From positions 1 through 35,513 of the forward strand of contig VHCM01000011.1 of the NCBI GenBank assembly GCA_016871685.1: 35,513 nucleotides of DNA. Direction: 5' to 3'. The translations under genes were made by a program, and so were the position numbers. The notes under the pieces are model-generated. The model was not told the origin of the DNA and made no database searches. It saw only the letters and a program-made list of their open reading frames with translations. Every line of letters begins with the position of its first letter. The first letter of the stretch is position 1. The DNA comes from Verrucomicrobiota bacterium (GTDB taxonomy: Bacteria; Verrucomicrobiota; Verrucomicrobiia; Verrucomicrobiales; Akkermansiaceae). Shown piece after piece: positions 7,656-15,300 of the stretch.

Positions 7656-7699
7656 TGCGGGACTTTTTGTCAAGATTTGCAGCCTGACCCCATTTGCCC

Positions 7700-7966: not shown

Positions 7967-8401
7967 TCACCGCGTCTTCAATCGCTCCACTGCCTCGACC
8001 AGTCGTTTGCGGGCTTCGGCGAGTTGCGATTCCAACTCGCGGATGCGGCGGTCGCGCGCGCGCACCGCATCCTCCCATTCCGCAAGCCGCGAGCGGGCGG
8101 TGTCGAGTTCGGCGCGCAGCGCGCCCACTTCGCCGTCGCGTTCGGCCAATCCGCGCGCCGATTCCTCGGCCGACCGCTGGGTCGAGCCGACCGCATCCTT
8201 GAGCACGGCGATGTCGCGCTCGAGCGCCGCACGGCGGGTCGCCTCGGCGTCGGCCAGCGCCCTTGCCTCGGCCAATCCGGCGCGCAGGCGGTCGGCCTGC
8301 AGATCGGCCTCGCGCTCGCGCAGCCACTGCACGACCACCCACGCGCCGAGCACGAGGCAGCCGACCGCATTGAGCATCGTGAGGAATCGCGGACTGTTCA
8401 T
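7967..8401 (-). CDS. Membrane-anchored coiled-coil protein of the TonB operon
   Basis: 144 residues: one N-terminal membrane segment (LNAVGCLVLGAWVVVQWL), then an Ala/Arg/Glu/Leu-rich stretch with heptad character to the C-terminus, predicted to be a long coiled coil. I see no catalytic motif. The start codon directly follows the exbD stop (TGA then ATG, no gap), so the two are almost certainly co-translated. It is the fifth and last gene of the receptor-tonB-exbB-exbD operon and may be a structural or scaffolding partner of the ExbBD motor. That role is inferred from position only. Confidence 0.75.
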   Translation of the reverse strand: MNSPRFLTMLNAVGCLVLGAWVVVQWLREREADLQADRLRAGLAEARALADAEATRRAALERDIAVLKDAVGSTQRSAEESARGLAERDGEVGALRAELDTARSRLAEWEDAVRARDRRIRELESQLAEARKRLVEAVERLKTR

Positions 8402-8815
8402 TCAATCCTCGGTTTCGAACTGGATCCGCGACACGCCGGCGGCGCGCACGGCGTTGAGCACGCCGAGCACCTGCTTGTGGCGCGCGTTTTCATCGGCGGA
8501 AATCATCACCCGGGTGGCGGCATCCGCACCGGCCGCCCGCAGGCGCGCGGTGATTTCCGACAGCGTGACCACCGCGCCCTCCCAGGTCGTGACGCCATTC
8601 GCATCGATCGCGATCTGGTACGGTGGCTCGCTGGTGTCGGCCACGGCGGTCGACGCCTCGGGCAAATCGAGCGGCACCCGCTTCATGTGCGTCATGCTCA
8701 GACTCACCAGCATGAACGCCGCGAGCAGGAAGAACATGATGTCGATGAGCGGGATGACCTCGATGCGGGCCTCGTCGCCTTCGTCGTCGGCAGGGCTGTG
8801 GAGATTGACGGGCAT
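8402..8815 (-). CDS. exbD: ExbD-like biopolymer transport protein
   Basis: 137 residues. The short cytoplasmic N-terminus is followed by the membrane helix IEVIPLIDIMFFLLAAFML, which contains the conserved proton-path Asp (PLIDIMFFLL), and then a periplasmic domain (IAIDANGVTTWEG, RVMISADENARHKQVLGVL). Together with ExbB it forms the proton-driven motor that energises TonB. I chose the ATG at 8815 (MPVNLHSP); a GTG at 8839 is in frame. It lies 76 bp after exbB and is directly coupled to the coiled-coil gene. Confidence 0.9.
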   Translation of the reverse strand: MPVNLHSPADDEGDEARIEVIPLIDIMFFLLAAFMLVSLSMTHMKRVPLDLPEASTAVADTSEPPYQIAIDANGVTTWEGAVVTLSEITARLRAAGADAATRVMISADENARHKQVLGVLNAVRAAGVSRIQFETED

Positions 8816-8891
8816 GAAGGAGGAAAAGAGGAAGTGCACAGGTCACGCGACCCGCATCCGGGACCATTCGATGAAAACGAGCCGCGTCATC

Positions 8892-9578
8892 TTACTCTTG
8901 CGTCTTGGGTCTTGAAGCGAAGCGTTCTTGCGTCTCCAGGGCAAACCCCTCGAGGTCGTGTCCGTGTTCCTTGGCGGATTTCACCAGCAGTTCGCTGTGG
9001 TTGATCCAGCGCTCGAACGATCCGCGCAGCACCGAGACGCGTTTGCGGAAGAAATTGTAGGGCAGCAGGCAGAGGATGGCGATGCCGATGCCCGCCGCGG
9101 TGGCGATCAGCGCCTCGGCGATCCCGCCGGAGACTTTTTCCGCGGCGAGCTGCTCGTCGCCGACAAATGAGAACGAGCCCATGATGCCGACCACCGTACC
9201 GAACAAGCCGAGCAGTGGTGCCAGGGTGATCATGGTGCTGATCACCCACATGCGTGCCTCGGATTTCTCGATCCACTGCATCGCGTGCAGCTGCATCGAG
9301 GCGAGCATCGAGGTGTGCGCGTGGCCGATGCCTGCGGCGAGATTGGCGAGGTAGGGATCGTCCGCATCGCGTGTGAGCTCCCATGCCCGGCGGAAATCGC
9401 CGGTTCCCAGCGCCTCCCTTGCCTGCTCCTGGTGCTCCGGTCGCATCCGCGAGCGCAGGCGCAGCCACCAGACCACGCGGTCGAGGATCACACACAAGGC
9501 AAGGAAGAAGGTGGCGAGAATGGGCCACATGACCCAACCGCCCTCGATGAAGGTGTCGACCACGATGTTGGCAAGCAT
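8892..9578 (-). CDS. exbB: ExbB/TolQ-like proton channel protein
   Basis: About 228 residues with three membrane segments: WVMWPILATFFLALCVILD near the N-terminus, then STMITLAPLLGLFGTVVGIM and ALIATAAGIGIAILCLLPY, the paired conserved MotA/TolQ/ExbB helices. I use the ATG at 9578 because the frame upstream lacks family character and overlaps the end of tonB. The operon context (tonB upstream, exbD downstream) favours ExbB over TolQ. Confidence 0.92.
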   Translation of the reverse strand: MLANIVVDTFIEGGWVMWPILATFFLALCVILDRVVWWLRLRSRMRPEHQEQAREALGTGDFRRAWELTRDADDPYLANLAAGIGHAHTSMLASMQLHAMQWIEKSEARMWVISTMITLAPLLGLFGTVVGIMGSFSFVGDEQLAAEKVSGGIAEALIATAAGIGIAILCLLPYNFFRKRVSVLRGSFERWINHSELLVKSAKEHGHDLEGFALETQERFASRPKTQE

Positions 9579-9628
9579 GAGGAACAGGGACAGATGTGGA
9601 TGAAGAGAACAAACCCCGCGCGATCGGA

Positions 9629-10420
9629 TCAGCGCAACTCGAAGACGATCGGCCGCTGCAGCTTCATGACCCCTCCGGGCGGAAATTTCCAGCGCCGAAC
9701 GGTTTTCACCGCTTCTTCGTTGAGCAAGGGCCACGGCGACGGCTGCTTTGCAAACGCCGAGACCACCCGGCCGTCCGTGTCGATCGTGAACTCGACGAGC
9801 ACCGTGCCCGTCTGACCGCCCCGCCGCGCCGCATCGGGATAGCGCGGGACCGGCATGCGGCCGGATGCGAGTCGCGCGGATGCATCGCCGCCGCCGCCAC
9901 CACGGCCAGCCCCGATCGAGGCACCGGTGGAGGCACCTGATCGTCCCGCGGGCGCGGATGACCTTGCGGCACTGGCCCGCGTCGTGGGCTTGGCAGCGGC
10001 AACGGGCTCCGCTGCCGCACGCGGCAGCGGCAACGACGGCACTTCGGGCAATGGCAACAATCCGGAGGCATCAGCCAACTCGGATGGAGACGACCAATCC
10101 TCGGTCGATGGCGATGCGGGCAGCCCTTCAGGCCGGACCACCTCACCCGCATCGCCTGATGGCGCATCCATCACGATGTCGGTGAGCACGATCGGAGGGG
10201 GCACCACCTCTGCAGCAGGGGCCGGCATGGCTTGCCACGGCTTGACCGTCTGCACCACCGCGCACACACCGGCAAGGCTGACCCATCCGGCCAGCGTGAC
10301 GATCTGGACCGCGTGCAAGGTTCCGCTCATCGCATCTGCGGTGCGCGAAGGATCTGCAGCCGCAGCACCAACGTGCATCGGAACCAGGGGAAACGCAATT
10401 GCCGGGTGCATGGTCGACAT
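9629..10420 (-). CDS. tonB: TonB-family energy transducer
   Basis: 263 residues: a cytoplasmic N-terminus, one membrane anchor at about residues 36-58 (VQIVTLAGWVSLAGVCAVVQ), a Pro/Ala/Ser-rich periplasmic linker containing a run of glycines, and a C-terminal TonB domain (PRYPDAARRGGQTGTVLVEF, TDGRVVSA, AVKTVRRWKFPPG). It transmits ExbBD motor force to outer-membrane receptors. The ATG at 10420 lies 3 nt after the receptor stop codon, so the two genes are translationally close. Confidence 0.93.
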   Translation of the reverse strand: MSTMHPAIAFPLVPMHVGAAAADPSRTADAMSGTLHAVQIVTLAGWVSLAGVCAVVQTVKPWQAMPAPAAEVVPPPIVLTDIVMDAPSGDAGEVVRPEGLPASPSTEDWSSPSELADASGLLPLPEVPSLPLPRAAAEPVAAAKPTTRASAARSSAPAGRSGASTGASIGAGRGGGGGDASARLASGRMPVPRYPDAARRGGQTGTVLVEFTIDTDGRVVSAFAKQPSPWPLLNEEAVKTVRRWKFPPGGVMKLQRPIVFELR

Positions 10421-10423
10421 CGT

Positions 10424-12697
10424 TCAGAATTCCAATTCGAAGCCCGCGAAGATCATGCGCGGCGCGTTGGCGCGCGCACCGAGCGGGGCACGGCTGATGA
10501 TTTTCCGGGTGTCGAAGACGTTTTGAACTCCCGCCACCAGCTTGAGATCCGACTTGAGCTGGTAGTGGCCCGTCAGATCCACTAGGAACAAGGAATCGAT
10601 CTCACCATCGATGGCGGTGGGATCGTCCGCGGTGCCGTCGTCCTTGAGCCGCGGATCCCCATTGTAACCCGTGCCCCAGGATGATGAAGCGAAGCTGGTG
10701 TCGAGATTCACGGACCACCGCTCCGCGTCGAGCGAAACCCCGGCGGCGAGCTTCCATTCCGGAATGTAGGGAATCTCATTGCCATCCACGGCACCCGCGA
10801 ACAAACCGGCGCCATTGCCCAACCTGCTGCCGCTCATGCCGACGAATTCGGCGTTGGTGTAGGTAGCGCTCAGATAGACCGGCAAACCATAGGTCCATCC
10901 CCGGGCATTGCCGAAATCGTACTCCACCATGCTTTCCAAACCCATGCTCTCCGCCGAGCCGCCGTTCTTGCTGGCGGTCAGCCCACCACCTCCCATGCCC
11001 ACTTCAGGCGCGATCAGGTTGTCGTAGTCGGTGAAGAACGCGACCCACTCGGAACGGAACGCCTCGTTCCGATAACGGTATCCCAATTCATAGCCGAGGC
11101 TTTCCTCGCTTTGGGTGCCGCCGAGGTATCCCGCGGGATTCGCGGGCGAGGCACCGAGATACACGCCGCCGAAGAGCGAGTGGGAAGCGTCGAAATCATA
11201 AGTCGCGCCCAGACCACCCATCACCAGATGCTCGTCGGCGGATCGGTGGACTCCCGTGCCGGTCGTGTTGCCGACATCGAGATGCTCGTAGCGCACCCCG
11301 GGGCGCAGGGTGAAGGCACCCATCTTCATTTCATCCTCAATATAAAGCGCCTTGGCAAAGGTCTCGCTCAGGCCGGCCGAAGTCTTCGCCTGCCGATCGG
11401 CCGCAGCGAAGGTGCCGTCACCATTCGACTTGTGGAAGATCTGCTGGTTGGTGCCGCCCGCGCGGTCGTAGTGCAGGCGCAAACCAACCGCGAGCTCATG
11501 CCCGATGCCGCGGGTTTCAAATCCGATGTTCGCCTGATTCTGCCAGCCATACGCTTCGTGATCGCGGAACGCATCGCGGCGGAAGATCCGCCCGGCGCCG
11601 AAGCCCTGCAGCACCGCGAGCGATGGCGCGTGCATCAGGGCCTGACCCACATTCGTGCGCAGTCCGGCACCGCTCAGCCCGTCGAGCTTGTCCCAGTTTC
11701 TCTTGAACGAATTGAAGTAGGCCGCCGACTCGAAACGCAGGGTGTCGCTGGGCGCGCCAACCCATTTCAGATACGTCCGCCATTGCTCGGCGTCGTGATG
11801 ATCGAATTGCGATGCCGCGTAGCGGCGGTCGGGATCGTCGCGCAAGTCCCGCACGGTGATGCCCGCATAGGATTCATTCGCCTCGAAATCCGTGTGGCCG
11901 ACCTTCAGCTCGAAGCGCTGATCGAGCACGGTTTCGGGCTGCCACGCCAGCTTGAGCATCGGCTCGACCAGATCGAAACCCGTGTCGGCAGAACTGCCGT
12001 CGATGTCGCGATAGCCGTCGCTGAACTGGCTGTGCATCTCCAACAGATAACCCACCGTGCCGGCATCGGTGGCGACCGTCCCACCATACGAGGTCTGGTT
12101 GAAGAAGGTGTTCCAACTGCCGTAGGTCGCGCGGGTGAAAAACCGCTTGTCGTCCTTGCCCGGAATCGGAGTCGACAAATAATTCACCACACCGCCGGTG
12201 GTGTGCGGACCATACCTCACCTGGCTCGACCCTTTCAAAAACTCGATCGCCGACATCCGCGCGGCCTTCGGCGAATAGTACGCCGCGGGCGCGGCATAGG
12301 TCGAGGGAGCCGTCAGGATGCCGTCCTCCATCAAGGTCACTTTCTCACTGCGGTTGCCATTCACCCCGCGCAGCGAAAGATTCGGGAAATTACCAAACCC
12401 ATCCTCGTCGCGCACAAAGACGGAGGGCACCTTCGCCGCAATCTGCGCGATGTTGGTGTAGCCGCGCTCGCGAAACTCCCCGGCCTCAATCACCGCCGCC
12501 GACCCCGGCAGCTCGACCACTTCCTCGCGAGCCCCCACCACCTTCATCGGCTCCAAGGTCCGATACACGTCTTGGGCCGATGCCACCACCGCCAAAGCAC
12601 CACCCAAACCCGCCCACAACCACCAGCCCCACCTCAAATTCATCACATCTCTCGGTGTCTTCATGATTCGTTTCGTCCCCTTCTTTTCAGGATTCAT
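10424..12697 (-). CDS. TonB-dependent outer-membrane receptor (FecA-like)
   Basis: About 757 residues. A signal peptide (WWLWAGLGGALAVVASAQ) precedes a TonB-box-like LEPMKVVG segment. The plug domain follows, with FecA-like signatures PSVFVRDEDGFGNFPNLSLRG and FLKGSSQVRYGPHTTGGVVN, and then a long 22-strand-type barrel ending in an aromatic-terminated strand (MIFAGFELEF). The family imports ferric siderophores or citrate, and sometimes other ligands. There is no FecR-interaction N-terminal extension. In-frame ATGs at 12697, 12664 and 12643 all keep the signal peptide; ribosome-site evidence does not separate them. A Fur-like dyad lies 16 bp upstream of the first. It heads the TonB operon, so iron-regulated uptake is the best reading. 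Confidence 0.93.
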   Translation of the reverse strand: MNPEKKGTKRIMKTPRDVMNLRWGWWLWAGLGGALAVVASAQDVYRTLEPMKVVGAREEVVELPGSAAVIEAGEFRERGYTNIAQIAAKVPSVFVRDEDGFGNFPNLSLRGVNGNRSEKVTLMEDGILTAPSTYAAPAAYYSPKAARMSAIEFLKGSSQVRYGPHTTGGVVNYLSTPIPGKDDKRFFTRATYGSWNTFFNQTSYGGTVATDAGTVGYLLEMHSQFSDGYRDIDGSSADTGFDLVEPMLKLAWQPETVLDQRFELKVGHTDFEANESYAGITVRDLRDDPDRRYAASQFDHHDAEQWRTYLKWVGAPSDTLRFESAAYFNSFKRNWDKLDGLSGAGLRTNVGQALMHAPSLAVLQGFGAGRIFRRDAFRDHEAYGWQNQANIGFETRGIGHELAVGLRLHYDRAGGTNQQIFHKSNGDGTFAAADRQAKTSAGLSETFAKALYIEDEMKMGAFTLRPGVRYEHLDVGNTTGTGVHRSADEHLVMGGLGATYDFDASHSLFGGVYLGASPANPAGYLGGTQSEESLGYELGYRYRNEAFRSEWVAFFTDYDNLIAPEVGMGGGGLTASKNGGSAESMGLESMVEYDFGNARGWTYGLPVYLSATYTNAEFVGMSGSRLGNGAGLFAGAVDGNEIPYIPEWKLAAGVSLDAERWSVNLDTSFASSSWGTGYNGDPRLKDDGTADDPTAIDGEIDSLFLVDLTGHYQLKSDLKLVAGVQNVFDTRKIISRAPLGARANAPRMIFAGFELEF

Positions 12698-12712
12698 GGC
12701 TTCTGCAAATTC

Positions 12713-12735
12713 TTGCTATTGAGACTCAGTCGCAG
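12713..12735 (-). promoter_or_regulatory. Candidate Fur box upstream of the TonB-dependent receptor
   Basis: An imperfect 23-bp dyad with arms TTGCTATTGAG (12713-12723) and CTCAGTCGCAG (12725-12735) around a central A; 8 of 11 positions are complementary. The core TTGAGACTCA closely resembles the GAGACTC-centred Fur sites known in proteobacteria. It lies just upstream of the receptor start on the minus strand, where Fe-Fur would block the promoter. Fur binding is inferred, not shown. Confidence 0.6.
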
Positions 12736-14719: not shown

Positions 14720-15300
14720 CCATCAAGATACGCCGCCAGCGACTCGCGCAGCGACGCGCGCGCGCGGAACAACAGGCTCTTCACCGCGGGCACCGACAAC
14801 TGCATCACCTTGCCGATCTCCTCGTACGACAGGTCGTCGTAGCGCCTCAGCACCACCGCCATGCGCTGCGCCTCGGGCAGCGCGGCAATCGCGGCATCCA
14901 CCGAACGCCGCAACTCGTCTTCCAGCACACCGGCGTCGGGCCGTCGGCGCGGGTCGTCCTCGATCTCACGCTGACGATGACCTTCTTTCTGATCATCGGC
15001 GGAAACCTCCCGTCTGCGCGCGCGGCGTCGCGTTTCGTTGAAGACGAGATTGCGCGTGATCGTGAGCAGCCAGGTCGTGAACTTCGCACCCGGCCGATAG
15101 GTCCGCGCATGACGCCAGACCCTCAGGAACACCTGTTGGGCGATGTCGTGGGCCTCATCGGCGTCGCCCAGCATCTTCGCTACCGTGCCCACCACCCGGT
15201 CTTGATGCCTCATCACGAGTTCGCGAAACGCCGACTCGTCACCACGGCCGATAAGCCGCATCAACTGGTGATCCGTCGCGTCGTCGGCCGCGTCAGGCAT
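14716..15300 (-). CDS. ECF-type RNA polymerase sigma factor
   Basis: 194 residues. Sigma region 2 (FRELVMRHQDRVVGTVAKML, AHDIAQQVFLRVWRHA, FTTWLLTITRNLVFNETRRR) and region 4 (ALPEAQRMAVVLRRYDDLSY, EEIGKVMQLSVPAVKSLLFR) are both clear, with nothing between but a charged linker, as in ECF (RpoE-like) factors. The start is well supported: AAGGAG at 15307-15312 lies 6 nt before the ATG, one of very few strong ribosome sites in the window. No anti-sigma gene is adjacent. Its stop overlaps the first possible malQ start. Confidence 0.9.
   Translation of the reverse strand: MPDAADDATDHQLMRLIGRGDESAFRELVMRHQDRVVGTVAKMLGDADEAHDIAQQVFLRVWRHARTYRPGAKFTTWLLTITRNLVFNETRRRARRREVSADDQKEGHRQREIEDDPRRRPDAGVLEDELRRSVDAAIAALPEAQRMAVVLRRYDDLSYEEIGKVMQLSVPAVKSLLFRARASLRESLAAYLDG

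Follow-up and report, generated by a model that had tools for sequence, protein, structure and literature searches.

A TonB receptor and motor operon of an Akkermansiaceae genome with a candidate Fur-type operator and a coiled-coil partner of ExbB

How TonB reaches across the periplasm and is engaged by the stator is still debated. In Escherichia coli, a three-part TonB-ExbB-ExbD motor serves the receptor FecA. The Vibrio TonB2 system is described as comprising TtpB2, TtpC2, ExbB2, ExbD2, TonB2 and TtpD2; its extra proteins, one of which carries a leucine-zipper motif, are essential, the system serves siderophore receptors, and a putative Fur box precedes its operon (PMC6957404). The classical Fur box is given as GATAATGATAATCATTATC (PMC7536154), an inverted repeat around a central base.

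We analyzed a 35,513-nucleotide stretch of DNA (the window, contig C11) from a Verrucomicrobiota bacterium of the family Akkermansiaceae, whose genome assembly comprises 2.27 Mb in 189 contigs and is 95.6% complete. A first-pass annotation of the sequence had proposed a complete receptor-tonB-exbB-exbD-coiled-coil operon running in one direction, and we recovered all five genes in that order on the minus strand (12697-7967). The first gene (10424-12697) encodes a TonB-dependent receptor in which a Plug domain is followed by a beta-barrel (PF07715 and PF00593, both over the Pfam cut-off, with the barrel evident in the structure model); its true start codon likely lies further in, at about 12643. 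The next three genes are tonB (9629-10420), exbB (8892-9578) and exbD (8402-8839), with TonB_C, MotA_ExbB and ExbD domains, respectively, all over the Pfam cut-off. The true tonB start is likely at about 10330, the point where homologues begin, and that of exbD at about 8815. The exbD stop codon abuts the start codon of the last gene (7967-8401), which encodes a single-helix membrane coiled-coil protein of 144 amino acids. The same five-gene order occurs in a relative, Akkermansiaceae bacterium isolate Prado238 (L113), with a receptor that is 60% identical. Upstream of the operon and on the same strand lies malQ (14719-12875), which an ECF sigma gene adjoins in turn (also on this strand; contained in the ORF 15501-14716 and probably starting near 15300), and a convergent AAA/DUF4143 gene lies downstream. 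Beyond the end of the operon, at 7669-7691, the window also contains the 23-mer GTCAAGATTTGCAGCCTGACCCC, which recurs in 22 exact copies across the genome, several of them paired in inverted orientation at spacings of about 90-180 bp. One such pair flanks a Y1_Tnp (IS200-like) gene (L191), which suggests a REP-type mobile repeat.

The operon resembles the E. coli system in its three-part motor and in a receptor whose fold is nearest to FecA, but differs in placing receptor and motor in one operon and in adding a coiled-coil gene. It shares with Vibrio TonB2, as that system is described in PMC6957404, a TonB-ExbB-ExbD motor with an extra protein and a putative Fur box before the operon. Unlike in TonB2, the extra part is a single 144-residue membrane coiled coil encoded after exbD, and the five genes include no DUF3450 protein (TtpB), TtpC-like fusion or TPR protein (TtpD). 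Such a set is found elsewhere in this genome, at a second TonB locus (L021, G000:C53:1500-7500) encoding a DUF3450 protein, a TtpC-like MotA/ExbB fusion, ExbD, TonB and a TPR protein.

The genome holds two TonB genes and four receptors in total. The proposal that the window motor is dedicated to its receptor is supported only in part: the gene directly before the tonB-exbB-exbD-coiled-coil cassette of relatives is often a different receptor (L117 and L120, and by eye L122) or no receptor at all. Which motor accompanies a receptor orthologue also varies between lineages, because in a related genus (L074) the orthologue is directly followed by a Vibrio TonB2-like set.

We detected receptor orthologues (E ≤1e-60) in 34 of 145 family genomes. 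The description of the receptor as FecA-like holds by both sequence and fold: FecA is its best solved relative by sequence, and the fold superposes on FecA with Z 39.0 and an rmsd of 2.2 over 620 aligned residues at 23% identity (Foldseek E 2.5e-43). The suggested uptake of ferric citrate, however, runs against the details. The Plug begins at residue 61 with no other match before it, leaving no FecA-type signalling domain; the FecA equivalog score is 125 against a cut-off of 1100; and of seven residues that we take to be the citrate contacts of FecA (numbering presumed), none of the five alignable ones is kept and the other two fall beyond the alignment. Because the signalling domain is absent and none of these alignable contacts is kept, the receptor is probably FecA-like in fold and not a citrate receptor, and we rejected ferric citrate as the ligand. 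Another ferric chelate, a siderophore of whatever kind, is the likely substrate.

The same observations bear on control by a FecI/FecR-like system, in which the ECF sigma factor encoded upstream of malQ would direct ferric citrate import. The kinship to FecA and a sigma gene on the same strand speak for this arrangement, but besides the missing signalling domain and citrate contacts (the latter from the presumed residue list), no FecR or other anti-sigma gene was recognised among the neighbouring ORFs scanned, and malQ separates the sigma gene from the operon. We rejected FecI-type control on the last two grounds and consider ferric citrate import under such a system very improbable. The first-pass statement that a sigma/anti-sigma pair is lacking holds as far as the ORFs scanned go, although an ECF sigma gene does lie behind malQ.

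Immediately upstream of the receptor gene, we located the GAGACTC-centred dyad noted in the first-pass annotation. The full element is larger than this core. It spans 23 bp at 12713-12735, TTGCTATTGAGACTCAGTCGCAG, and forms an imperfect palindrome whose arms, by eye, pair at 8 of 11 positions on either side of a central A; we treat it as a candidate Fur-type operator with no strand assigned. Its presence is not a matter of chance, as a match with one mismatch occurs in the window against a mean of 0.01 in shuffled sequence. A check set beforehand was whether similar dyads occur at other iron genes of this genome. We scanned all 2.27 Mb with the pattern TTGCNANTGAGANTCANTNGCAA, allowing at most three mismatches and using the reversed pattern as a control, and obtained only two matches, the window site and a site at C27:1019-1041, with none for the control. 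Directly behind the C27 site lie a FeoA-domain gene and feoB, so the operon shares its putative operator with another set of iron genes of the same genome. In a scan with a scoring matrix, the window site reached 32.1 and the feoAB site 28.4. The dyad was absent from the stretches around the other three receptors of the genome and around its other ExbD and TonB loci, where the best scores ranged from -4.7 to 6.7. A sigma-70 promoter scan returned no site near the dyad at the strictness used. Separately, we noted that one of the receptor genes lacking the dyad lies behind a cobalamin riboswitch (L017 3599-3763, G000:C12), and because of this riboswitch it probably encodes a B12 receptor.

We next compared up to 600 bp upstream of 31 receptor genes, 30 from relatives plus the window (two stretches, L071 and L052, were under 600 bp). 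A dyad with at most four mismatches precedes 23 of the 31, counts that are not independent since the loci share ancestry; the reversed pattern matched at none of the 31 loci and dinucleotide shuffles matched once in 620. The remaining eight have no close dyad. When 15 genomes were scanned at two mismatches, eight gave a match, at 16 distinct places: seven before receptor orthologues, two before AraC-type genes, and one each before feoAB, ferritin and another receptor, with the last four having no clear iron gene behind them (two of these lie within coding sequence). Two genomes of genus g3 (G002 and G028) showed no dyad at two mismatches. As a side observation, the dyad precedes AraC-type regulator genes of relatives at L106, L110, L112, L137 and L143 (the assignment was checked with Pfam for L137 and L143 only), which are perhaps siderophore regulators.

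The dyad is also found in relatives before tonB cassettes that have no receptor. We examined the cassettes with a second matrix, whose training set consisted of just 14 receptor sites, all in genomes that lack the cassette; it scored the window site at 30.3 and the feoAB site at 29.6. At a threshold of 9, taken from the null distribution of a different matrix, 16 of the 30 cassette loci had a site upstream of exbB, compared with one of 30 on the downstream side. At five of the loci with no upstream match (L161, L162, L163, L165 and L166) a receptor gene precedes tonB and the dyad precedes that receptor, beyond the stretch scanned; other cassettes, among them those at L167-L170, yielded no dyad site.

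These sites recall the classical Fur box, as both are inverted repeats around a central base and both precede feoAB, ferritin and receptor genes. The dyad differs in its 23-bp length, its conserved outer TTGC/GCAA arms and a G in the core, and it follows the E. coli Fur consensus less closely: the window copy agrees at 12 of 19 positions and one relative's site at 15 of 19. In the titles and abstract openings of the papers listed on Verrucomicrobia and Akkermansia Fur, TonB and ExbB, we found no such operator described.

We identified three Fur-family genes in the genome, on contigs C4, C67 and C2. Among solved structures, the C4 protein most resembles Fur chains (6d57 and 4ets), and it retains the H-x-H-x-x-C-x-x-C-G-K-x-x-E-F stretch, making it, on sequence grounds, the natural candidate to bind the dyad; the stretch examined around its own gene contains no dyad. 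The nearest chains to the C67 protein are of the zinc type or are labelled "metal uptake regulation". The C2 gene, which by sequence sits directly before sufC (L004 1315-2661, G000:C2), has a match to the family model that ends after the first 94 of its 121 positions. With three family members encoded, the dyad might instead be bound by the Zur-like C67 protein or the suf-linked C2 protein, and the operon would then respond to zinc, oxidative or Fe-S stress and not to iron. Against this, the genes linked to the dyad are iron genes (feoAB, ferritin, and FecA-like and other receptors), and it is the C4 protein that stands nearest to solved Fur chains, so that we regard a response run by either of the other two as rather improbable. 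The prediction of iron-linked Fur-type control made in the first-pass annotation is instead well supported, by a dyad common to the operon and feoAB that in relatives precedes receptor orthologues, ferritin and another receptor.

While the operon is ordinary in kind, its constant coiled-coil partner is a less ordinary feature and belongs to a protein family without a name. The first-pass annotation listed the fifth gene simply as a coiled-coil gene, correctly as to its presence but missing its partnership with one ExbB subfamily. We found the coiled-coil protein in 35 of 141 family genomes and the window-type ExbB (E ≤1e-40) in 35 of 141, and the two sets are identical. At all 30 loci compared, the coiled-coil gene is no more than 1.5 kb away from exbB. 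In 19 of 20 coiled-coil loci it comes after exbB-exbD; the remaining locus is a second copy in one genome (L095, in G061) without an ExbD match. Its structure model is one helix spanning residues 4-143 (mean pLDDT 94.2). Across 17 homologues, N11, G14, C15, L18, Q25 and W26 are invariant in or at the end of the membrane helix, as are A112, R116, D117, R131, L134 and A137 near the C-terminus. We considered whether the NAxGC motif marks a lipoprotein and judged this unlikely, as the membrane helix runs on past the Cys and an Asn precedes it.

A phylum-wide profile search with the coiled coil matched 13 of 387 genomes, 10 of them within the family. Two of the three matches outside it (L157 and L159) have ExbB and ExbD encoded adjacent, and the third (L158) seems to be a coincidental match to a coiled coil within a long protein. 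We found no specific Pfam or NCBIfam family for the protein, only generic coiled-coil models below their curated cut-offs; a plasmid search gave no match; and the titles and abstract openings of the papers listed on ExbD and coiled coils describe no such protein.

The protein could in principle be an operon passenger with a separate role in the cell envelope. Coiled coils are generic and this one weakly matches many unrelated models, and the L095 locus has no ExbD match, both of which fit a passenger. That reading nonetheless appears unlikely. The protein has a distribution identical to that of the ExbB subfamily, its gene is adjacent to exbB at every one of the 30 loci, several residues of its membrane helix never vary, and in two genomes outside the family (L157 and L159) ExbB and ExbD are again encoded beside it. 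From this association, we infer that the coiled-coil protein is probably a fourth component of the motor. A stronger proposal stands at about even chances: the protein may be an obligate fourth subunit defining a distinct class of TonB-ExbB-ExbD system. Its conserved N-x-x-G-C membrane helix would fix it in the stator, and its rod would extend across much of the periplasm to position TonB or stabilise it, so that one small protein would do the work of Vibrio TtpB, TtpC and TtpD.

Overall, we consider it likely that this is an iron-repressed operon under Fur-family control, encoding a receptor for a ferric chelate and a motor with a coiled-coil fourth component. When iron is plentiful, an Fe2+-loaded Fur-family repressor would occupy the dyad at 12713-12735, over the promoter. 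When iron runs short, the repressor would leave, and the receptor, TonB, ExbB, ExbD and the coiled-coil protein would be made together. The receptor would bind a ferric chelate, probably a siderophore, and the ExbB-ExbD stator, powered by the proton gradient, would drive TonB to open the receptor plug. The membrane helix of the coiled-coil protein may pack against ExbB and ExbD, and the rod of the protein, about 170 Å if straight, would project into the periplasmic space and could there hold TonB or guide it.

The dyad is a predicted operator of iron genes in one bacterial group, probably the Akkermansiaceae, and may allow iron regulons there to be predicted. The coiled coil adds a protein family that goes with a single ExbB subfamily; if it is a dedicated rod protein, part of the question of how TonB and its stator work together would become testable.
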